DNA from: Psychroserpens sp.
GTDB lineage: Bacteria; Bacteroidota; Bacteroidia; Flavobacteriales; Flavobacteriaceae
Length of the DNA stretch: 64,000 bases
Assembly: GCA_017643165.1 (NCBI GenBank)
Contig: JAEPNY010000001.1
Location: 62,001-126,000, forward strand
Direction: 5' to 3'
Under the pieces are notes generated by a model. That model did no database searches, was not told the origin of the DNA, and saw only the letters and a list, made by a program, of their open reading frames with translations. Below, one piece after another: positions 10,341-22,116 of this stretch. How positions within the stretch are numbered: position 1 is the first letter of the stretch; each line of letters begins with the position of its first letter. The position numbers and the translations under genes are program-made.

Positions 10341-10464
10341 GACATCTAATTACACTCACTTATTCAAAAATGGAATTTAACTCAGTCAAAAGATGAGTTC
10401 ACTCAATTGATATTTTTAAAACGTATAGGTCCTAATAGTTTTGAATAAATCTAATCCTCTAGAT

Positions 10465-13302
10465 ATGAAAACTATTCCTCGCTATTACATCATTATACTT
10501 TTACTCTTCGGTATCAACGCGATCACAAACGCACAAAACGGTAAAGTAAAAGGCATACTTACCTCACCTGAAGATGGACTTCCTTTACCTGGAGTATCCG
10601 TAATTATTAAAGGCACGACGGTAGGCACGCAAACAGATTTCGATGGTGAATACAGTATTACTTGCGATGTTGGCGATACGCTAGTATTCAGTTTTATTGG
10701 GATGCAAACACGTGAGGTTATTGTAACGGAACAAATGTTCAGTATCAAAAACAACAACTTCAAAATTGACTACTTCAAAGTGGCTATAATTAAAAGTGAT
10801 GCCTATAAAAAAGCATTAGAATCACAGAGCGATTTAAAATTAAAAATAAAAAGTATAGACGACGGAAAAGATGCAACCTATAAGAACTATTATGACGTAT
10901 ATAGAATTAAAGATTTCAATTTCGAAAAGGACAGTGTCAACATCACCTATTTTGACCCTGACATTTTTTATGAAATACGAACAAGCTCGATGCTGGGTAT
11001 TCAATTTGTTCGTAATCAGAACCTTCCAAAGCTGCAATCTACATTTTCACAAGGTGCCTCTAGCAGTGGCGTCTTAAGTTTTCAAGGTCCAGAAACTGGA
11101 AATATTTTTTCTTATGGGCCAAGACTAGATAATCTTCAATTTGATGGAAGCAATTACCCTTATGACATTAACGGTAGACCTGTTCCTTTTGGAAGTGGCC
11201 AAGGAGCTCGTTTAAGCGCATACGATAATTCAATTATTGAACCCTCGGTAATTTCCTCAAACACTGTTAATCTTAGTCTTTCAACGGACGAAAAATTACT
11301 AGAGTTCGGATATAACAATCAATCAAATCGCGATCTCTTTAATCAAGAACGACGTAGTAGTAACTTCTTCGATATCCATTTTAAATCATTAAATAAATAT
11401 AAAACGCGTACAAACTGGTCTGGCTTAGTGAAATACGGAAAAATTATAGATAGACAGCCGAATATTAATGGATTCATCAACAACGTACTTTTAAATTCGT
11501 GGGCTACTCCAGCCAGCTTTAGCAATAGTCAAGGGTACTTACTAAATGGGAGTCAGCGTCGATTTTCTGAGCAATTCAATAACCCATATTGGTTGCTAAA
11601 CACCAATAGAAACAATGAAGAAAACCAAAGCTTTTTAGGATCTGTAAAAATTAAAAAATGGCTCAATGATAAGCTATCTATATTAGGGCAAGTTGATTTC
11701 AATCATACTAATGACGGGCAACGTTTTGCAGTTCCATTACATACTGCTGGATTCGACACTGGGTTTGCATCGGAAAAAGACATCCTAAGAAATGATCTTC
11801 GTATAGCCTTTCATTTAAATTATGAGAAGTGGTTTAATGATCTCCATTTTGAACTTAATTCTGTAGTACACTTCAACAACGAACTCATGAAATATCGATT
11901 CGATGAGCGTCGTGATTTTGCGTCAATTGTTTTTGAAGATCCTCAATTCTCCAATACCGAGAGACAAAAATTACATCGAAACAGTCTTACGCTTTCTAAT
12001 AGTTTTATGGTAGACTTACATGAGCCAGAATTAGAAATAAAGCTCACCAATAATAGTTACCTGTCATCTATTCAAAATAATAAATTGTTCCTTCCGAACT
12101 TACAATTAAGACTTAAGGTGGACCACTTACTCGAGCTATATGATTTTAATCATATTGATCTCACGGCATCAACCTCTATGGCAATAAACGAACCTGATTT
12201 ATTCTACAACAATAGAAGTCATAACAGTTTATTAATTACACCAATGGAAAGCCTCCAATTCACATCCAACAACGACCTATTTTTGAACAATTCAATCGGA
12301 CTTGAGGAACTAAGAACAATTGAATTCGGTACGTCGATAGGATTCTCAACACATCCATTTAGGTTCGATTTTAATGCAAGTTATTATGATAGATTAACGA
12401 AAAATGCATTGTATCCTATTTTAGGCAACACCACTTTTGTTCTTGACAATGTAGGTGACATAAGTAACAAAGGGTTTGAACTTACGTTCAATACAGATAT
12501 AAGTATCGATGACCATTTGAAATATTCGTCGCGAGTAGTATTTTCAAAATATCGCACGGAAGTTCTAAAACTTAATAACGAACAGAGTGCCATTCCTATC
12601 GCTGGATTTGCAACCGTATCAAAACAACTAATTGTAGGTGAACAGGCAGGCATTATTGTTGGTACGGCATATGAAAGAGATGGAAATAATAATCTAATTA
12701 TAGGGGATGACGGATTTCCTTTGGTTGCAAACACAACTCAAATTATTGGTGATCCTGTACCAGACTATAATCTAGGTTTGGATAACACATTTAATTTCAA
12801 AGGATTTACACTGAATGTTCTGCTAGATATTCAAAAAGGCGGCAATGTCTGGAATGGCACTCAAAATACATTGAATTACCTTGGAACATCACAGCAGTCG
12901 GCTTCAGACCGATCAATAACAAACTTTATTTATCCTGGTGTTACGCTTCAAGGTGATGTTAACACGGTTCCCGTGGATTTTTATGCTGCTGAAAATGACA
13001 TTTCACAGAATAGATTCGTTCGCTACGGTTATTCAGGAGTTGATGAAGATGCTATTGAAGATGGCCGTTATGTCAACTTGAGATCCATCAATTTATCATA
13101 CAACTTTAAGCCTGATAAAAAAGATGCCTTTTTTAGAGAAGTTGACATTGTTATCTATGCAAATAACCTCTTGACCTGGACCAAATTTGATGGAGCTTCA
13201 CCCTACAGCAATCTCTATGATGGCCCTTCTGCACAAGGACTTAATTTCTTCAATTTACCTATGACTACTGAAATCGGTTTCAAACTCGATATAAAACTTT
13301 AA
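10465..13302 (+). CDS. SusC/RagA-like outer-membrane beta-barrel lacking the plug domain
   Basis: The 945-residue product has a signal peptide (1-23, ending NAQ) and a carboxypeptidase-regulatory-like beta-sandwich (about 25-91, with DGLPLPGVSVIIKGTTVGTQTD). A non-standard 90-residue linker follows, then a SusC-type barrel from about 186 to the end, including the family hallmarks QGPETG, LQFDGSNYPYD and ISNKGFEL, and terminal FxLDIKL. The usual plug motifs (VDG, VLKDA, GVIIITTK) and TonB box that should follow the N-terminal domain are absent. They are found in the next gene, 3 bases downstream. The start is ATG 10465, which places the signal peptide at the N-terminus; a TTG at 10441 is less likely. 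No SusD gene is adjacent. Confidence 0.85.
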   Translation: MKTIPRYYIIILLLFGINAITNAQNGKVKGILTSPEDGLPLPGVSVIIKGTTVGTQTDFDGEYSITCDVGDTLVFSFIGMQTREVIVTEQMFSIKNNNFKIDYFKVAIIKSDAYKKALESQSDLKLKIKSIDDGKDATYKNYYDVYRIKDFNFEKDSVNITYFDPDIFYEIRTSSMLGIQFVRNQNLPKLQSTFSQGASSSGVLSFQGPETGNIFSYGPRLDNLQFDGSNYPYDINGRPVPFGSGQGARLSAYDNSIIEPSVISSNTVNLSLSTDEKLLEFGYNNQSNRDLFNQERRSSNFFDIHFKSLNKYKTRTNWSGLVKYGKIIDRQPNINGFINNVLLNSWATPASFSNSQGYLLNGSQRRFSEQFNNPYWLLNTNRNNEENQSFLGSVKIKKWLNDKLSILGQVDFNHTNDGQRFAVPLHTAGFDTGFASEKDILRNDLRIAFHLNYEKWFNDLHFELNSVVHFNNELMKYRFDERRDFASIVFEDPQFSNTERQKLHRNSLTLSNSFMVDLHEPELEIKLTNNSYLSSIQNNKLFLPNLQLRLKVDHLLELYDFNHIDLTASTSMAINEPDLFYNNRSHNSLLITPMESLQFTSNNDLFLNNSIGLEELRTIEFGTSIGFSTHPFRFDFNASYYDRLTKNALYPILGNTTFVLDNVGDISNKGFELTFNTDISIDDHLKYSSRVVFSKYRTEVLKLNNEQSAIPIAGFATVSKQLIVGEQAGIIVGTAYERDGNNNLIIGDDGFPLVANTTQIIGDPVPDYNLGLDNTFNFKGFTLNVLLDIQKGGNVWNGTQNTLNYLGTSQQSASDRSITNFIYPGVTLQGDVNTVPVDFYAAENDISQNRFVRYGYSGVDEDAIEDGRYVNLRSINLSYNFKPDKKDAFFREVDIVIYANNLLTWTKFDGASPYSNLYDGPSAQGLNFFNLPMTTEIGFKLDIKL

Positions 13303-13305
13303 ATC

Positions 13306-16300
13306 ATGAAAAAGACAGTTCAATATTTAGCATTCTTATGCATTTCATTTTTAATCCTAATATCACAAAGCGCATTTGATAAAGAAGATCAAGAAGCAAG
13401 CTCTATTGAAAAAATCTATGCACAAACGGATCGCCCGTTTTATTTTCCTGGAGAAACTGTATGGTTTAAAGCCTATCTCGTAAAAGAAAATAACACAGCC
13501 TCTCAAATGAGCGATATTGTCTATGCACAACTTATATCACCAAAAGGAGATGTTGTACGATCTCTTAAACTAGGCGTCAACGATGGTTCTGTTTATGGTG
13601 ACTTTGTGATACCAGAATCGTGGGTCGGTGGTATTTATAAACTCAAACTTTTTACTAACTGGATGCGAAATTTTGGTGAGGACAATCTATTTACAAAGGA
13701 TGTCATGATTCAGAAAATAGTTAAGCCGAATGTATTATTAAGACTAGATTTCGAAAAAGAAGGCTACGGTCAAAATAGTTTGGTTCGCGCATCATTCAAT
13801 GCAAAAGATTTAAAAAACACACCATTACGAAATGTCCTCCTTAATTACACCGTATCTGTAAAAGGGGAACGCATCATTACTAATAGTATTAGCACTAATG
13901 CCGAAGGCGATGCAACGCCAGAGTTTACATTACCATCAGACCTTAAATCGGCCGATGTTGTGCTTAATGTTCGTGTCCCGTATAATGGTTCAATAGAGTC
14001 CATTTCAAGAGCAGTTCCTGTTGTACTTGACACTATTGATCTTCAATTTCTACCTGAAAGTGGTATGGTTGTCAGTGGCGCCGAAAATACCATAGCTTTC
14101 AAAGCCTTAAATGAATTCGGGAAACCTGTAGATGTTAGCGGTATTATCGTAAATAGTAAAGGCGACTCTATTACGTCCTTCTCAAGTTTTCATGATGGAA
14201 TGGGTAAATTAACTTTGTCTGCAATACATGGCGTCGATTACCTTGCTAAAATAAAAGAACCATTCGAATCGCATCGTTTTATTCCACTTCCTGAGGTTTT
14301 TAAAAAAGGAACCCGTTTTTCAGTTCAAACTTCAGATAATCAAGCAATAATTACATTACATTCAACTGAAAAAGATGCCATTACACTAGAGGTATCTAGT
14401 GCCGATAAAAAGTTATTCGAAAAGCGCGTTTCCCCTAAGAAGAATCAGATCAAAATAAACACCAAAGGATTCCCAATGGGAATTACGAAATTCAGCTTCA
14501 AAGATGCGTTTGGATTTGTTTTAGCCGAACGATTAGTTTTTATAAATCCAACCCATAATTTAGACATATCACTTGAATTGGATAAAGAAGTTTACCAAAC
14601 TAGAGAAAAAGTCAATCTAAAAATTCAAACTCTAGATCAAAATGGCAATCCATTACCCTCAAATTTATCCATAGCTGTTGCTGACAACAAACTGTTATCT
14701 TTTGCCGACGACAAGCAAGACCATATACTGTCCTATTTATTATTATCATCTGAATTGAACGGGAAAATACACGAACCTCATTTCTATTTTAACCCAGAAG
14801 AACCTAAATCAATTGAAGCTTTAGATTACCTCATACTTACGCATGGTTGGCGAAATTATGTTAGTATGCCAAAGTTAGATCTTGATACCGTTTCATTCTT
14901 GCCAGAACAAGGAAGTATTCAAACAGGTTCGGTTGTTGACCGCAATGATAATCCAATTGAAGCAAATCTCATTCTTATGGATCGTAAAGGCAGTAAGGTT
15001 TTAGACTTTAAAACTAAGCCTGATGGTACGTTTAGCTTTAAATACACTAATGATAACTATCTGTATTTGTTGGCTTATCGCGAAGATGGTCAAAAGCTTA
15101 AGATTAAAAAAAATCATATGGTACCATTTAACCCAAATATAAAACTAAGACGATCAGCCGTTAACAATCAAAACGTTAAGACCTATAAACAGAAAATTAC
15201 TTCACCACGCGAGGTCGTAGAAGGTGCGGTTGCTGTGGCCTCGGTTTCCTTAGATGAGAATTTGTCCGAATTAGAATCTGTAGTTGTTACGGGATATAGA
15301 GGCGTGACACGTAACAGTTCGGTGACCTCATCTTTATCAACTGTTAGTTCAGAAGAGATTATTAGCGTTCCTATAAATTCTATCGATGAATTGCTACAAG
15401 GACGTGCAGCAGGCGTTAATATAGCTACGGCTTCTGGACAAGCAGGACAAAGTACAACCATAGTAATAAGAGGGAGAGCCAGCATTTCTGGTGATATAGA
15501 ACCCTTATTCATAGTTGATGGTATTCCCGTAAGTCAAACTACATTTCGATCGCTAAATAGTTCAGAAGTGGAACATATAAGTGTATTGAAGGACGCGGCA
15601 GCAACAGCTATTTACGGAAATCTTGGTGCTGGAGGTGTGATTATTATATCAACCAAAAGTGGTGGACACATTAATAATTATAATAAGAAACGCTTAAACA
15701 ATAAGCTGTTTTACAACTACACGATTGAATCATTTTACAATTATAACCCTTCAGGAATTCATGAGCCAAGACAATACTATGTTCCTAAATATATGGGAGA
15801 TGAACTTCCTGAAGAGCGCACTGATTTCAGACAAACCATTTATTGGAATCCAGTTGTACAAACCGATGAAAATGGTTGTGCTGAACTTGAGTTTTATAAC
15901 AGCGATGCCATAACGTCATTTAGCGTGACAGCAGAAGGTATTGGTTATAACGGCATGTTAGGAAGGCAAACCAAATCTTATGCTACAAAAAAACTATTTA
16001 ACGTTGATTTTAAAGCGCCAAATTATATGGTCCTTGAAGATCTTGTTAAATTACCTATAACTCTTACTAACGAAAGCGACTCATTAATCAATGCTGAAAT
16101 GGAAATTAAATTACCTGAGGGTTTAACGCTTTCCGAAGATTATCAGAAGAATTTCTCCATTGAAGCTAACGGCACAATAACCACCAATATTTCAGTCGTT
16201 CCAACCCAAACAATTAAAAATGGTCGTATTGAAATGCTAGTAAAATCGGAGGACTATAAAGATCAGGTAACCAAAAAAGTCACTGTTCTGAGCCCGTATT

Positions 16301-17886
16301 TTCCTGCGCGTACGTCAATTTCTGGAGCCAAATCAATTCAATTCAAATTCGATATTAAAAATAGCGTATCAGGCAGTATACGCGCTGATCTTAACATTTA
16401 TACCAATGTTGTTGGTGATGTCATGGATGGTATAGAATCATTGATAAGAGAACCATATGGTTGCTTCGAACAAACTTCATCTGCAACCTATCCCAATATT
16501 ATGGTTCTGAAATATCTAAGAGCTACAAATAAAATTAACCCTGAAGTTGAAGAAAAAGCTTTGGCTTTTATAGCAAAAGGTTACAGGCGACTTAAAGGAT
16601 TTGAAACAAAGGAAGACGGATTTGAATGGTTTGGTAGAACACCGCCTCATGAAACGCTAACAGCATTCGGTTTAATGGAATTCACAGAAATGCAAGACGT
16701 CTATCCAAAAGTTAGTCAAAAGATGATCGATAGAACCAAAAGATGGTTACTGAGCCGCAGAAACGGAACTGGTGGGTATTATAAAAGCACAAAAGGATAT
16801 ACTAGTTTTACAAAGTCGCCCGAAAGTGTCGCTAATGCCTACATCGTTTATGCACTGTCGTCAGTTGGTGTAAAAAATGAAATCAATCTTGAGTATGAAA
16901 CCGCATATAAAGAAGCGATGCAGAGCAATGACACCTATAGAATGGCTTTAATGGCACTTGCCAGCCATAGTCGTAAAAACTATCCGAATCGAGATTTGTT
17001 ATTAAAGAAAATAAAACAATCCGTTACGATTAACGGCTTTGATAATTTGCCTGTAGAACATACGGTAGTCAATTCATATGGCAACTCTAAACATATAGAA
17101 ACCGTTGCTTTCACACTGTTGGCTTTAATGACAGAATCAGATGAAAACAAATCGCTCATAACTCAAGGGATTGAACAACTTCTAAACCTCAGAAAATACA
17201 ATAGATTTGGGTCTACGCAGGCCACAGCAATGGCATTAAAAGCACTTATTTATTATGCACAACTTCAAAGTGAAATTACGCTTAATGATAATGATATCGT
17301 TGAATTTATCATAAATGGTCATTCCGTAACTCAAAAATTATATTTGGATGATACAGGTAAGATCAAAATTGATAATATAAACCAATATTTTTCCGAAGGT
17401 GAACAGCTCGTGGAAGTTAAATTTTATAATTCTAAGTCCTCATTCCCATATTGTTTAACGGTGGACTGGGATAGTTATATCCCAGAATCTTCACCCAACA
17501 CTTTTGTGGATCTTGAAACCACAATCAAAAAATCAACTTGTGTTGTGGGCGATAATGTATCTATGACCATTGCTGTTTCAAATGAGAAATCCTATGCTCT
17601 AGGAATGGTGACCAGCATTATTGGAATGCCTTCAGGAACCACTGCCCAACCATGGCAACTAAAACAGTTATTAGAAACAGAGCAAATCGCTTACTACGAA
17701 GTATTTGATAATTATCTAGTGTTTTACTGGCGAAACTTTGAGCCTTTGGAAACTAAACAATTAAGGCTGGATCTAAAAGCTGATATCGCTGGAACATATA
17801 AAGCACCAGCAAGTACCGCATACTTGTATTATGGTGACGAATTCAAAGTATGGAAATCCGGAACTGAAGTACAGATAAATAATTGA
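13306..17886 (+). CDS. Alpha-2-macroglobulin-like thioester protein with an inserted SusC-type TonB plug domain
   Basis: This 1526-residue exported protein begins with a signal sequence and macroglobulin domains (IYAQTDRPFYFPGETVWFKAYL, about residues 36-57, is a typical MG1/MG2 opening). Residues about 651-787 are a SusC-type plug: a TonB-box-like VVVTGYRG, LLQGRAAGVNI, IRGRASISG, LFIVDGIPV, EHISVLKDAAATAIYG and GGVIIISTKSGG. The A2M domain follows (IYWNPVVQTDENG), then the thioester domain with Cys1053-x-Glu-Gln1056 in YGCFEQTSS and the alpha/alpha toroid helices. In known A2M proteins the Cys-Gln thioester traps proteases. The plug and its partner barrel, encoded just upstream, imply an outer-membrane complex; this is inference. 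Confidence 0.85.
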   Translation: MKKTVQYLAFLCISFLILISQSAFDKEDQEASSIEKIYAQTDRPFYFPGETVWFKAYLVKENNTASQMSDIVYAQLISPKGDVVRSLKLGVNDGSVYGDFVIPESWVGGIYKLKLFTNWMRNFGEDNLFTKDVMIQKIVKPNVLLRLDFEKEGYGQNSLVRASFNAKDLKNTPLRNVLLNYTVSVKGERIITNSISTNAEGDATPEFTLPSDLKSADVVLNVRVPYNGSIESISRAVPVVLDTIDLQFLPESGMVVSGAENTIAFKALNEFGKPVDVSGIIVNSKGDSITSFSSFHDGMGKLTLSAIHGVDYLAKIKEPFESHRFIPLPEVFKKGTRFSVQTSDNQAIITLHSTEKDAITLEVSSADKKLFEKRVSPKKNQIKINTKGFPMGITKFSFKDAFGFVLAERLVFINPTHNLDISLELDKEVYQTREKVNLKIQTLDQNGNPLPSNLSIAVADNKLLSFADDKQDHILSYLLLSSELNGKIHEPHFYFNPEEPKSIEALDYLILTHGWRNYVSMPKLDLDTVSFLPEQGSIQTGSVVDRNDNPIEANLILMDRKGSKVLDFKTKPDGTFSFKYTNDNYLYLLAYREDGQKLKIKKNHMVPFNPNIKLRRSAVNNQNVKTYKQKITSPREVVEGAVAVASVSLDENLSELESVVVTGYRGVTRNSSVTSSLSTVSSEEIISVPINSIDELLQGRAAGVNIATASGQAGQSTTIVIRGRASISGDIEPLFIVDGIPVSQTTFRSLNSSEVEHISVLKDAAATAIYGNLGAGGVIIISTKSGGHINNYNKKRLNNKLFYNYTIESFYNYNPSGIHEPRQYYVPKYMGDELPEERTDFRQTIYWNPVVQTDENGCAELEFYNSDAITSFSVTAEGIGYNGMLGRQTKSYATKKLFNVDFKAPNYMVLEDLVKLPITLTNESDSLINAEMEIKLPEGLTLSEDYQKNFSIEANGTITTNISVVPTQTIKNGRIEMLVKSEDYKDQVTKKVTVLSPYFPARTSISGAKSIQFKFDIKNSVSGSIRADLNIYTNVVGDVMDGIESLIREPYGCFEQTSSATYPNIMVLKYLRATNKINPEVEEKALAFIAKGYRRLKGFETKEDGFEWFGRTPPHETLTAFGLMEFTEMQDVYPKVSQKMIDRTKRWLLSRRNGTGGYYKSTKGYTSFTKSPESVANAYIVYALSSVGVKNEINLEYETAYKEAMQSNDTYRMALMALASHSRKNYPNRDLLLKKIKQSVTINGFDNLPVEHTVVNSYGNSKHIETVAFTLLALMTESDENKSLITQGIEQLLNLRKYNRFGSTQATAMALKALIYYAQLQSEITLNDNDIVEFIINGHSVTQKLYLDDTGKIKIDNINQYFSEGEQLVEVKFYNSKSSFPYCLTVDWDSYIPESSPNTFVDLETTIKKSTCVVGDNVSMTIAVSNEKSYALGMVTSIIGMPSGTTAQPWQLKQLLETEQIAYYEVFDNYLVFYWRNFEPLETKQLRLDLKADIAGTYKAPASTAYLYYGDEFKVWKSGTEVQINN

Positions 17887-18714: not shown

Positions 18715-21700
18715 ATGATAAGAAAACTACTGTCTCTTCTTTGTTTTATTGTCATCTCCGGAAATGCTATAAGCCAAACAACTGATCTTTCTATCGTTGC
18801 TCAAGCTCAAGACTTATCTGGATCAGATATATCACAGGTGGCCATTTTTCAGGATTTCCAGTATGTAGTAACAATTATTAACTCAGGCAACGCAGTTTCT
18901 GATGCTTCGTTCGAAATCACGATGGATAATGAACTTATCAATCTAACATTAGACGGAATTTCTTCACAAAATAACAATGGTGGAGCCAGTGATGCCTCTA
19001 ACTTACAATTAGCGGGAAGTGTTCTCACGGGAACCATTGCTACTCTTCCTGCTGATTCAAGCGTCGATATCCTCATCCTAGTTACAGCACCAATTAATAT
19101 TGGCGGAATCGCCATCAATGCGATTATTTCTGCACCTGATGGCACGACCGATACCAATACTTCAAATAACCAATCATTAATCTCTATCGATGTTATTGAC
19201 GTACCTATAGATTTTTCCATTACGCATAGTCAAATCACACCTACAGAAGGTACTCCAATTGCTGCATGGAATGATACAGTAACCTATCAATTCACCATAA
19301 CTAATAATAGTTCTATTGATTATCCTTTAAGTGAATTCAGTGCTAACTTAGAACTCATTTCCGATTTAGCATTTGGAAGACCAAATGTTCGACTCGAATC
19401 TATTAATTGTATCAGTTCTTCTAATGGTACGGAGTGTCCAGACTTCCCGTCTCCATCAGGACAGATTGTATCCATTAGCGGTGATCAAGACATGTTTCAA
19501 TATGGAACACCTCATCTGTTTACTTCTGGTGGCTCAATAACGGTAGAAATGGTATATCGTTATTTAGATCCTTCCTGCGGAACGGAAACCGGTACGCTAT
19601 TCGTTGCTAGTTTAATTCGACTAGAGCTTTTTGGAAATCAAACGAATGAGTCGTCTAGTGTTTCAAATGCAGTCATCACCGAATTACTAGAAGCAGAGCC
19701 TTGTCTGTTGACGGATATTTGTATCGATACCATTCAGATCAATCCTGATCCAACAACCATGGTGAATTGGGAAGAAGAGGTGACTTTTGAAACAACAATT
19801 TGCAACAATGGCCCTCTTGATGGAAACGTGGCATTCTTTCTAACAAACCTCACGCCTTTAATAGAATGGGATATTATATCGGCAGAATGCACAGGTACTA
19901 CAGGTTCAATATCTTGTGACGATATTTTTATAACTATTGATGACCTGTTTTGGGTTAGCGATGCTTTTATTCTTCCAGTTGGTGCGACAGTTACTATAAC
20001 TACAGTAGTCACTTTTTTTGAACCGGAATGTACTTTAAATAATTTGAATAATCTGGCGCATGTGAGAAGTGGTACAAATCTTTTGGAATCTGATATTTTC
20101 GATTCTAATATTGATAATAGCACACAAAGTGATTTTGTGATGTTGCCAGATACTGAGGCTTGTCCGTTTTTGGATATTGGCGTTACAAAAACGCAAATTG
20201 ATCCAGAATTACCTCAAGGCGGGTCAATGGATAATACGACTCAAGTAGGAAATGTGACCTATGAAATTACGGCGTTTAACTTTAGTGATGAAGACACCGT
20301 TATTGAATTGGTTGATCTTACGAGTACTTCGGCTAATGAAGTCCCTTATTTAGGAACGCTATTGTCTATTGAATGTGTCTCTACGACTGGTGGTGCTGAA
20401 TGTTTTGAAATCACAAATTCGGCAATTGGAGAAGCATTAGACGGAATACCTCAGGCTGGAACACCTGATATATTTTGGGAAATTACAGAAGAAGATAATT
20501 GGGTTTTACCTGCCAATAGTTCGGTGACATTCATAGCAACAGTAGCTTGGGAAACTGACTGTTCAATAGATCCAATTCCGGTTAATAATGAAGTGTCTAT
20601 TAATCACGCAAACTCATCGTTTGATAATAATACATCCAACAATTCTGATGAAGTAATTACTTATTTTGCACCTTGTGTGGACTTAGTTGTTCAAACCTTC
20701 CCAGAATTTACACAGGTCAATGTTAATCAATCCTTTGATTGGATTGTTGATATTACGAACAGTGAAAACAGTTCGAACGCTATAAATATTTCCTTTGAAG
20801 ATATCATTAACGATGTATTTTCAATAAACGGTGCACCTACGTGTGAGGTTACAAATGGAAATGCTAATTGCATAACAAACCTTCAAATCACAGACAACGT
20901 AATTACAGGAGACATAAGCAATATGGATGCAGGATCGACAATTCGAATTCGCATTCCGGTAGTTTCCCCAAGCTTCGGTGGAGCCTACAATAATATTGCA
21001 TCGGCTACAGCAAATGAAACTGATAACAGAGAGGTTTCACCAGAAACCAATACCTCTATTAGTAATGTACAAATTGTGGCGCCTTTGCTCGATAAAAATT
21101 ATGTGCCAGAAACAATTTTTATCGGTGAAGAAAGTGTGTTAACCTTTTCTATTTCTAATCTGCCTTCGAACCCGTCTCAAAGTGATATTTCATTTACAGA
21201 TGTTTTTCCAAATAATATTGTCGTTGTTTCAGCGCCTGAATGGGTGGAAAGTAATGGCTGCACAGCTACATTCATTGGTAACACAGGAGATAATTTTGCT
21301 GGAGTAAGTGATCTTACTTTTCCAGACGATGTTAGTTCCTGTACCTTTAGTGTAACGGTCACCTCAACTATTGAGGGCGAATTTTTGAATGATACTACGA
21401 ATTTTCAAGACCAAAACAACATAGACACTTCAGGAGTTAGTGCGCTTCTAACGGTATTGGATGACACCTCAGATGTAGATATTGAAGTTCTGAAGTCGGT
21501 TTCGCCCGAAGAAGCTGAGATTGGCGACGAGGTTACCTTTACAATACAGATTACAAATTTAGGCACGACAGACGCAAATGCTGTCGAAATATCTGATCAA
21601 TTACCCGAAAGTTACAATCTGGTATCATTTACTTCAAGTATGGGTGTTTTTGATCCAAATACTGGAATTTGGACCGTTGATACATTAAATCCAAACCAAG

Positions 21701-22116
21701 GAGAAACATTAACCTTAACAGTTGCTATAGAATCGGTGTTAGACCTTAATAATATTGCCACTCTAAATAATCTACAACAACCTGATCAAAACAGTTCAAA
21801 CAATACAGATAATGCAAGCGTATTTGTAGATGGATGTGTCCTAATCTCGGAAGGGTTTTCACCTAACGGCGATGGCACTAATGATTTCTGGGAAATTGAA
21901 TGCATAGAGCTTTATCCTGAAAACATAGTGAAAGTATTTAATAGACTGGGCGTTCAAGTCTATGAGTCTGAAAATTATCAAAATAATTGGGACGGCGTAG
22001 CAAATATGGGCTTATTAAGATCCTCGAATAGACTTCCAGTGGGCGCCTACTTTTACATTGTTGAACTTAATCAGGAATTAAGTCCAAGAACAGGATGGCT
22101 CTATCTTAACTATTAG
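18715..22116 (+). CDS. DUF11-repeat surface protein with a type B type IX secretion C-terminus
   Basis: The 1133-residue secreted protein has a signal peptide (MIRKLLSLLCFIVISGNAISQ). It continues with several DUF11-like conserved repeats (patterns TITNSGNAVSDASFEITMD and FTIQITNLGTTDANAVEISD) containing paired cysteines and very acidic, Asn/Ser/Thr-rich loops. The last ~90 residues, beginning EGFSPNGDGTNDFWEIE and containing VKVFNRLGVQVYES and GAYFYIVEL, form a gliding-motility-associated CHU_C-type domain, the type B sorting signal of the type IX secretion system. It is likely a large cell-surface or released adhesin-like protein. The ligand is unknown. The gene converges with, and overlaps by 11 bases, the DoxX-like gene. 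Confidence 0.85.
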   Translation: MIRKLLSLLCFIVISGNAISQTTDLSIVAQAQDLSGSDISQVAIFQDFQYVVTIINSGNAVSDASFEITMDNELINLTLDGISSQNNNGGASDASNLQLAGSVLTGTIATLPADSSVDILILVTAPINIGGIAINAIISAPDGTTDTNTSNNQSLISIDVIDVPIDFSITHSQITPTEGTPIAAWNDTVTYQFTITNNSSIDYPLSEFSANLELISDLAFGRPNVRLESINCISSSNGTECPDFPSPSGQIVSISGDQDMFQYGTPHLFTSGGSITVEMVYRYLDPSCGTETGTLFVASLIRLELFGNQTNESSSVSNAVITELLEAEPCLLTDICIDTIQINPDPTTMVNWEEEVTFETTICNNGPLDGNVAFFLTNLTPLIEWDIISAECTGTTGSISCDDIFITIDDLFWVSDAFILPVGATVTITTVVTFFEPECTLNNLNNLAHVRSGTNLLESDIFDSNIDNSTQSDFVMLPDTEACPFLDIGVTKTQIDPELPQGGSMDNTTQVGNVTYEITAFNFSDEDTVIELVDLTSTSANEVPYLGTLLSIECVSTTGGAECFEITNSAIGEALDGIPQAGTPDIFWEITEEDNWVLPANSSVTFIATVAWETDCSIDPIPVNNEVSINHANSSFDNNTSNNSDEVITYFAPCVDLVVQTFPEFTQVNVNQSFDWIVDITNSENSSNAINISFEDIINDVFSINGAPTCEVTNGNANCITNLQITDNVITGDISNMDAGSTIRIRIPVVSPSFGGAYNNIASATANETDNREVSPETNTSISNVQIVAPLLDKNYVPETIFIGEESVLTFSISNLPSNPSQSDISFTDVFPNNIVVVSAPEWVESNGCTATFIGNTGDNFAGVSDLTFPDDVSSCTFSVTVTSTIEGEFLNDTTNFQDQNNIDTSGVSALLTVLDDTSDVDIEVLKSVSPEEAEIGDEVTFTIQITNLGTTDANAVEISDQLPESYNLVSFTSSMGVFDPNTGIWTVDTLNPNQGETLTLTVAIESVLDLNNIATLNNLQQPDQNSSNNTDNASVFVDGCVLISEGFSPNGDGTNDFWEIECIELYPENIVKVFNRLGVQVYESENYQNNWDGVANMGLLRSSNRLPVGAYFYIVELNQELSPRTGWLYLNY

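Follow-up and report, generated by a model that had tools for sequence, protein, structure and literature searches.

The window, a 64,000-nucleotide stretch of Psychroserpens sp. (assembly GCA_017643165.1, contig JAEPNY010000001.1, positions 62,001 to 126,000), carries on its + strand two open reading frames (ORFs), in the same frame and 3 bases apart, across which the parts of a SusC-type TonB-dependent transporter are divided (Table 1). The first encodes the barrel without a plug; the second encodes an alpha-2-macroglobulin (A2M) with a thioester motif and, in the middle of the chain, with about 640 residues before it and 740 after it, a complete SusC-type plug. The original prediction, drawn from the letters of the DNA, had described the pair in these terms and had seen no SusD. 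Its account of the barrel is borne out by Pfam, by the split of the NCBIfam model TIGR04056 and by a structure model, that of the A2M by Pfam and NCBIfam, and no SusD was found among the adjacent genes scanned with Pfam, those farther off being covered only in part. Its idea of trans-plugging is supported in part; the placement of the plug at the bait/C3a trigger site, the exchange of plugs between SusC and A2M and the existence of barrel-less A2M relatives go beyond it. The split is directly visible in the matches to TIGR04056 (SusC/RagA, 981 positions): the barrel matches best at positions 648-981, in three stretches, and the A2M at 65-206. The corresponding ranges are 592-981 and 75-214 in an order-level relative (L079) and, in the clearest case, 213-981 and 75-224 in a pair found in a different order of the class (L264), whereas an ordinary SusC encoded in the window's own genome (L031) is matched unbroken over positions 1-981. 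The match to TIGR04057, the SusC signature, is located in the A2M protein, and the barrel scores 182.3 bits against TIGR04056, below the cut-off of 368.25. Since the split and the pair are conserved in relatives, as detailed below, a chance pairing is excluded.

Table 1. Features of the gene pair (window coordinates).
Feature	Position	Strand	Basis or remark
Plug-less SusC-type TonB-dependent barrel gene	10465..13302	+	945 aa from the likelier ATG at 10465; mechanical ORF 10441..13302 with TTG start
CarboxypepD-reg-like N-terminal domain (SusC N-terminal extension) of the barrel	10549..10737	+	Pfam PF13715, 1.4e-13
Linker, residues about 94-160, mostly pLDDT < 50	10744..10944	+	AlphaFold2 model; position of TonB box and plug in ordinary SusC
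22-strand beta-barrel, model residues 168-945	10966..13299	+	AlphaFold2 model and fold search
A2M with thioester motif and internal SusC plug	13306..17886	+	1526 aa
MG2 domain	13411..13659	+	Pfam PF01835, 3.2e-14
SusC-type TonB box and plug, residues 643-786 (Pfam Plug 671-778)	15232..15663	+	Pfam, NCBIfam
TonB-box-like motif LESVVVTGY, directly before the plug	15271..15297	+	Sequence motif
Linker, plug to MG7-type A2M domain	15667..15819	+	Alignment
A2M domain (PF00207)	15835..16104	+	Pfam
Thioester domain (TED)	16396..17256	+	Pfam PF07678, 1.2e-28
Thioester motif GCFEQ (CxEQ type), residues 1052-1056	16459..16473	+	Sequence
C-terminal MG10 / receptor-binding-type domain	17536..17841	+	PF17973, 18.5 bits, weak, under the Pfam cut-off

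In the barrel protein, Pfam detects CarboxypepD-reg domains only, and no Plug domain. An AlphaFold2 model built from 42 aligned sequences (the window's protein, 7 plug-less relatives and 34 ordinary SusCs) has a mean predicted local distance difference test score (pLDDT) of 83.1 and a predicted template modelling score (pTM) of 0.74, and contains 22 long strands, hand-counted from the DSSP list, with no plug domain among them; residues 94-148 and 156-160 have pLDDT below 50. The closest solved folds are the SusC chains of BT2261-2264 (5fq6), with template modelling (TM) scores of 0.68-0.69. A plug hidden inside the barrel chain is therefore rejected, and the earlier idea that the barrel is plugged in trans survives this check. 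Among the relatives, the plug-less barrel of Dokdonia (L098:7007-9427) has just 806 aa and is strongly divergent, with the pairing to an A2M retained.

The A2M protein shows, above the Pfam cut-offs, MG2 at residues 36-118, Plug at 671-778, A2M at 844-933 and TED at 1031-1317, and the GCFEQ motif is invariant in 12/12 aligned relatives. Over the plug segment, the family profile aligns with residues 66-222 of RagA (E 2.5e-37), and by profile comparison the plug is closest to RagA and SusC homologues. The usual place of the bait region is filled by the plug and its linkers. Position 839 of the A2M profile, directly past plug and linker and just ahead of the A2M domain, is matched to residue 93 of the alpha chain of bovine C3, shortly past C3a, which comprises the first 77 residues of that chain. 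Judged from this alignment, the plug sits at the site held by C3a in complement C3 and by the bait region in A2Ms. The structure model of residues 330-1526, made from 8 sequences, has a mean pLDDT of 66.1 and a pTM of 0.40, and its macroglobulin (MG) and TED parts are mostly confident. Its closest solved folds are human A2ML1, CD109 and A2Ms, followed by C5, Salmonella A2M and E. coli ECAM; the TM scores are low, about 0.25-0.36 (0.33-0.36 for A2ML1, CD109, C5, Salmonella A2M and ECAM), yet the E-values are 1e-30 or better. The window's genome holds a further A2M-like reading frame of 1872 aa (G000:C4:16772-17359).

The TonB box is found on the same chain as the plug. The pattern [LI]-[EDNGQKS]-[EQSDKN]-[VI]-[VI], searched in the 60 residues around the plug start, occurs in 30/30 rows of plug-bearing A2Ms and in 69 of the 92 ordinary SusCs, and in none of the 30 rows of plug-less barrels, that of the window included; there the search zone was the 100 residues past the CarboxypepD domain, or past residue 80 where the domain model was unmatched. 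The two sets hold 28 distinct rows each (L094 repeats L034 and L095 repeats L041), and the A2M row of L035 is cut. This is the second of two patterns. The first, which required L at the first position, was present in 17/30 A2M rows and 84/92 ordinary SusCs; the second accepts I as well at that position and is stricter at others. Because it was devised after viewing the misses, control zones of the same A2M proteins were counted with it too, and contained it in 42 of 627 cases. By this motif evidence, the TonB box has moved together with the plug onto the A2M. Matches to TonB_C and ExbD are present in the window's genome.

The pair is conserved well beyond the window. We searched genomes at the order, class, family and phylum levels by alignment, scoring two or three candidates per genome, and assigned domains by scripts with self-built hidden Markov models and thresholds. 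Among the 296 genomes of the order sample, the barrel alignment gave 18 matches of at least 335 bits, followed by a gap down to 182 bits or less. Seventeen of them, in the window and in 16 other genomes, are barrels of this subfamily that have no plug, and in each case a plug-bearing A2M comes directly after; the remaining match (L090) is an ordinary SusC that has a plug of its own but lacks an A2M. When the same genomes were searched separately with the C-terminal part of the A2M, these 17 again stood out with scores of at least 925 bits, against 68 bits for the best of the rest. In the family sample (299 genomes), the A2M was found in 12 (E up to 1e-40): the window, three from the order sample and eight newly fetched, two repeating named loci. 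All twelve have plug and barrel. Within the genus, 7 of 23 genomes have a full-length A2M and all seven have the barrel; in one of these (G018) the A2M is broken by an assembly gap, so that it seems split past the plug at a run of unknown residues (L035:12438-17059).

A scan of a named collection, of which the best 80 matches were kept, gave 78 loci, some from genomes already in the order sample. Among these matches there were 99 barrel-match ORFs, 91 with their own plug and 8 without. Seven of the eight are followed by a plug-bearing A2M; the eighth (L100) has a frame open to the start of the stretch, which leaves its plug region out of view, and no A2M after it. Of the 91 barrels with a plug, 88 of which have 1 kb or more of downstream sequence, none has such an A2M directly after it. 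In L147, a cut MG-type ORF lies about 6 kb from a plug-bearing barrel.

At the class level, the A2M family is present in 66/395 genomes. Flanks were fetched for 30 of the 64 class-level A2M genomes outside the window's family, where 29 A2Ms lack the SusC-type plug and one (L264) has plug and barrel; one locus from the phylum search (L225) was added. Pooling the order, named, genus, family, class and phylum searches and dropping 5 duplicates left 65 A2M loci, in which a plug-less barrel stands directly upstream in 35/35 cases with the SusC-type plug (34 called by script and L078 by hand, since its ORF start was over-extended) and in 0/30 without it. In the stretches fetched around the latter there is no barrel match at all (0/30; less than 3 kb upstream for L259, L274 and L282), and this count applies to SusC-type plugs as called by the self-built model, because Pfam added plugs in L259 and L277. 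The split pair thus spans 35 loci in many genera and two orders, with an intergenic gap of 2-5 bases in 31 of them and apparent overlaps, with mechanically chosen starts, in the other 4. The earlier suggestion that the two genes should occur together in relatives held in 17/17 genomes of the order sample, 12/12 of the family sample and 35/35 loci with a SusC-type plug. The bait site of the 30 barrel-less A2Ms is variable: Pfam detects CarboxypepD-like matches (E up to 0.01) in 24/30 and a TonB_C domain (PF03544) in 4/30 (L251, L258, L259, L260). TonB_C at this site would give A2Ms another connection to the TonB system.

The phylogenies are quick searches without bootstrap. In a tree with ordinary SusC barrels, those without a plug group in a single clade with a support of 100 (30 plug-less and 28 ordinary rows, 56 of the 58 different). 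A single clade of A2M plugs among SusC plugs is rejected by 113 log-likelihood units (approximately unbiased test, p-AU 6.1e-5; 30 A2M and 38 SusC rows, 66 of the 68 different). The Dokdonia A2M plug is nested in a SusC clade, and that of the window shares 70% identity with its counterpart in an ordinary SusC from its own genome. The plugs of the A2Ms have apparently been replaced repeatedly by plugs of ordinary SusC transporters, and because they were exchanged in this way, they presumably must work as plugs. Distances between barrels correlate strongly with those between A2Ms across 27 pairs (r 0.925 for the C-terminal and 0.936 for the N-terminal part).

Plugs also occur on other proteins. 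In all 13 of the fetched loci labelled f5, the product of a gene directly upstream of the barrel, or one gene beyond, matches the plug model, 11 of them with more than 100 bits; the matches in L076 and L087 have about 50 bits, and Pfam finds no plug, nor any other domain, in these two proteins. The gene at this place in L078-L089, whose product starts with MENNH, combines a likely membrane helix (by eye) with the plug-model match. Pfam finds Plug and VWA domains in 5 of the 7 f5 proteins scanned (L078, L079, L080, L082, L084), with YfbK-type domains in four. An obligate role of the plug-VWA gene was rejected, since it is present at full length in the pair-less f5 genomes G319, G299, G166, G219 and G143. 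In the window, a plug supplied by the upstream gene was also rejected: that gene encodes a tetratricopeptide-repeat (TPR) protein. Elsewhere, just upstream of a plug-less barrel, L074:7623-8093 encodes a 156-aa protein with a signal-like start and two half-plug repeats. A family of about 910 aa (L032:8390-11119, L036, L037, L038, L040) combines MG domains with a degenerate plug; three members have a TonB-box-like motif, and the family shows no TED match and, in the fetched stretch, no barrel match.

The domain split, the barrel fold, the TonB-box and thioester motifs of the A2M, the bait-site position, the linkage and the plug exchange are all given by sequence and models. The reading that we favour, with a probability of about 0.68, is that the products of the two genes make up a single TonB-dependent complex in split form, in which the plug of the A2M closes the SusC barrel in trans and gates a thioester trap. 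The barrel would be an outer-membrane 22-strand SusC protein that lost its TonB box and plug, and the A2M a secreted, most likely periplasmic, protein whose bait/C3a site carries the lost parts. From the periplasm, the plug would enter the partner barrel and shut the pore; once docked, it would hold the A2M at the outer membrane's inner face, replacing the anchor of other bacterial A2Ms. The plug-borne TonB box would make the barrel-A2M pair a target of TonB, whose pull would remodel the plug as in ordinary transporters, where pulling is thought to unfold its mechanically weak half (PMC11658791). A substance passing the barrel would then meet the thioester trap at its exit.

The pull of TonB may also arm the thioester, because the plug would be tethered at the site whose release activates A2M and C3 proteins. 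In the E. coli A2M, cleavage untethers the bait region and thereby frees the thioester (PMC4498604). It is conceivable, if rather doubtful, that the proton-motive force pulling on the plug, and not cleavage, opens the gate and arms the covalent trap, with the entrant captured in the periplasm. This entrant may be a protease, a bacteriocin, a phage part or a peptide.

A number of observations weigh against the split complex. First, the contrast between 35/35 and 0/30 goes back to no more than one or two gains in the A2M phylogeny: on the backbone tree (64 rows, L035 excluded) the plug state needs just 2 changes, and the 65 loci are therefore not independent cases. Second, a different, Pfam-detected plug occurs without barrel in 2/30 A2Ms (L259, L277), and the plug-VWA protein is also found in f5 genomes without the pair. 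Third, a single clade of A2M plugs is not rejected within the genus alone (p-AU 0.164). Fourth, with the A2M backbone accounted for, barrel and plug co-vary marginally (partial r 0.27, p 0.049; partial Mantel, 27 pairs), and the barrel correlates more with the N-terminal half of the A2M (0.34, p 0.009), so the plug signal is not specific. Such a signal, computed from sequence distances, is no proof of contact. Fifth, the plug region is mostly of low confidence in the A2M model, built from 8 sequences.

Some of these observations would fit other explanations. The A2M plug could enter any resident SusC barrel, or merely bind TonB, the neighbouring barrel being otherwise plugged or open. Such generic docking agrees with the 70% identity between the A2M plug and an ordinary SusC plug of the same genome, with the existence of plug fusions without plug-less barrels and with the plug-model proteins beside the barrel in f5 loci, but it leaves unexplained that SusC-type plug-A2Ms and the plug-less barrels of this subfamily were never seen apart in 35/35 loci and 17/17 genomes, and the resident ordinary SusCs have their own plugs already. 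We consider it unlikely, although it is the most probable of the alternatives. Slightly less probable is a role in export, where the barrel would translocate the whole A2M, or some portion, to the cell surface and the plug would act as a leader or stopper. Known transporters have both plug ends facing the periplasm, the plug lies far inside the A2M chain, and Pfam finds no C-terminal domain of the type IX secretion system in the window's A2M, all of which count against export. In its favour are the tight coupling of the two genes, with their gap of a few bases in 31/35 loci, and the precedent of Oar, a TonB-dependent transporter that is required for PopC secretion and shows that such proteins can have a secretory use (PMC6434023).

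More improbable still is a passive relic, in which the A2M plug would be a structural insert that does not plug, the barrel a porin-like pore, and the association one of operon linkage only. The variability of the bait site in barrel-less relatives, with CarboxypepD-like, TonB_C or Pfam plug domains, and the marginal co-variation are compatible with it, yet the TonB-box motif is kept in all 30 rows of plug-bearing A2Ms, the apparent renewal of plugs from ordinary SusCs would be needless for a relic, and an open 22-strand pore would be costly to the cell. An artefact (frameshift, misassembly, or gene fission in a single strain or genome), for which the broken A2M frame of G018 (L035) could be cited were it not at an assembly gap, is refuted by conservation of the identical split in 35 loci, many genera and two orders.

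The adjoining genes scanned with Pfam encode the TPR protein upstream, a TP_methylase, presumably RsmI-like, and a DUF11/CHU_C protein. The latter (window 18715-22116) is the next + strand gene past the pair; its product combines DUF11 repeats with a CHU_C domain of type IX secretion, and a single minus-strand methylase gene separates it from the pair. Protein starts resembling this neighbour are also found near the pair in L035 and L043.

If the split complex is real, it would connect the gating of the outer membrane with a thioester trap of the complement type, coupling an energised gate to an immune-type trap in bacteria. It would suggest that bacterial A2Ms stand guard over one specific gate, and that this ancient immune fold might be triggered mechanically. 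By repeatedly exchanging plugs between A2Ms and transporters, nature would have run a domain-swap experiment, and the pair would offer a direct test of plug insertion and pulling. We found no report of a plug-bearing macroglobulin or of a plug-less SusC partner among the listed matches in the open PubMed Central literature, a search to which preprints and most subscription papers are external. Both proteins belong to known families, each departing from its own in a defining feature, and as far as we have seen the combination is apparently undescribed.

The A2M resembles bacterial A2Ms (E. coli ECAM/YfhM, Salmonella SaA2M) and complement C3 in its MG2, A2M and TED domains and its CxEQ motif, and differs from them in that a TonB plug replaces the bait/C3a segment. 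ECAM is an inner-membrane-anchored periplasmic protein (PMC4498604), whereas a simple lipobox pattern was found in none of the 30 rows of plug-bearing A2Ms; it occurs in 3 of 11 long plug-less A2Ms (L233-L235 of L225-L235). Oar of Myxococcus is likewise a TonB-dependent transporter with a second protein, PopC, as its client (PMC6434023). The pair shares with the SusC/RagA transporters (TIGR04056; SusCD BT2261-2264, RagAB) the CarboxypepD N-terminal domain, the 22-strand barrel, the SusC-type plug and the TonB box, but here the last two are on a separate polypeptide, with no SusD among the adjacent genes scanned. In this it also differs from Oar, which has its own plug and whose PopC is a secreted protease. 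To our knowledge, natural TonB-dependent transporters carry the plug in the same chain. Reportedly, the plug and barrel of FhuA have been made as separate polypeptides in E. coli, where the plug can act on the barrel in trans, but unlike the pair described here that is a laboratory construct, and its plug is not part of a trap protein. If our reading is true, the pair would demonstrate that plug and barrel can be separated as modules outside the laboratory as well.

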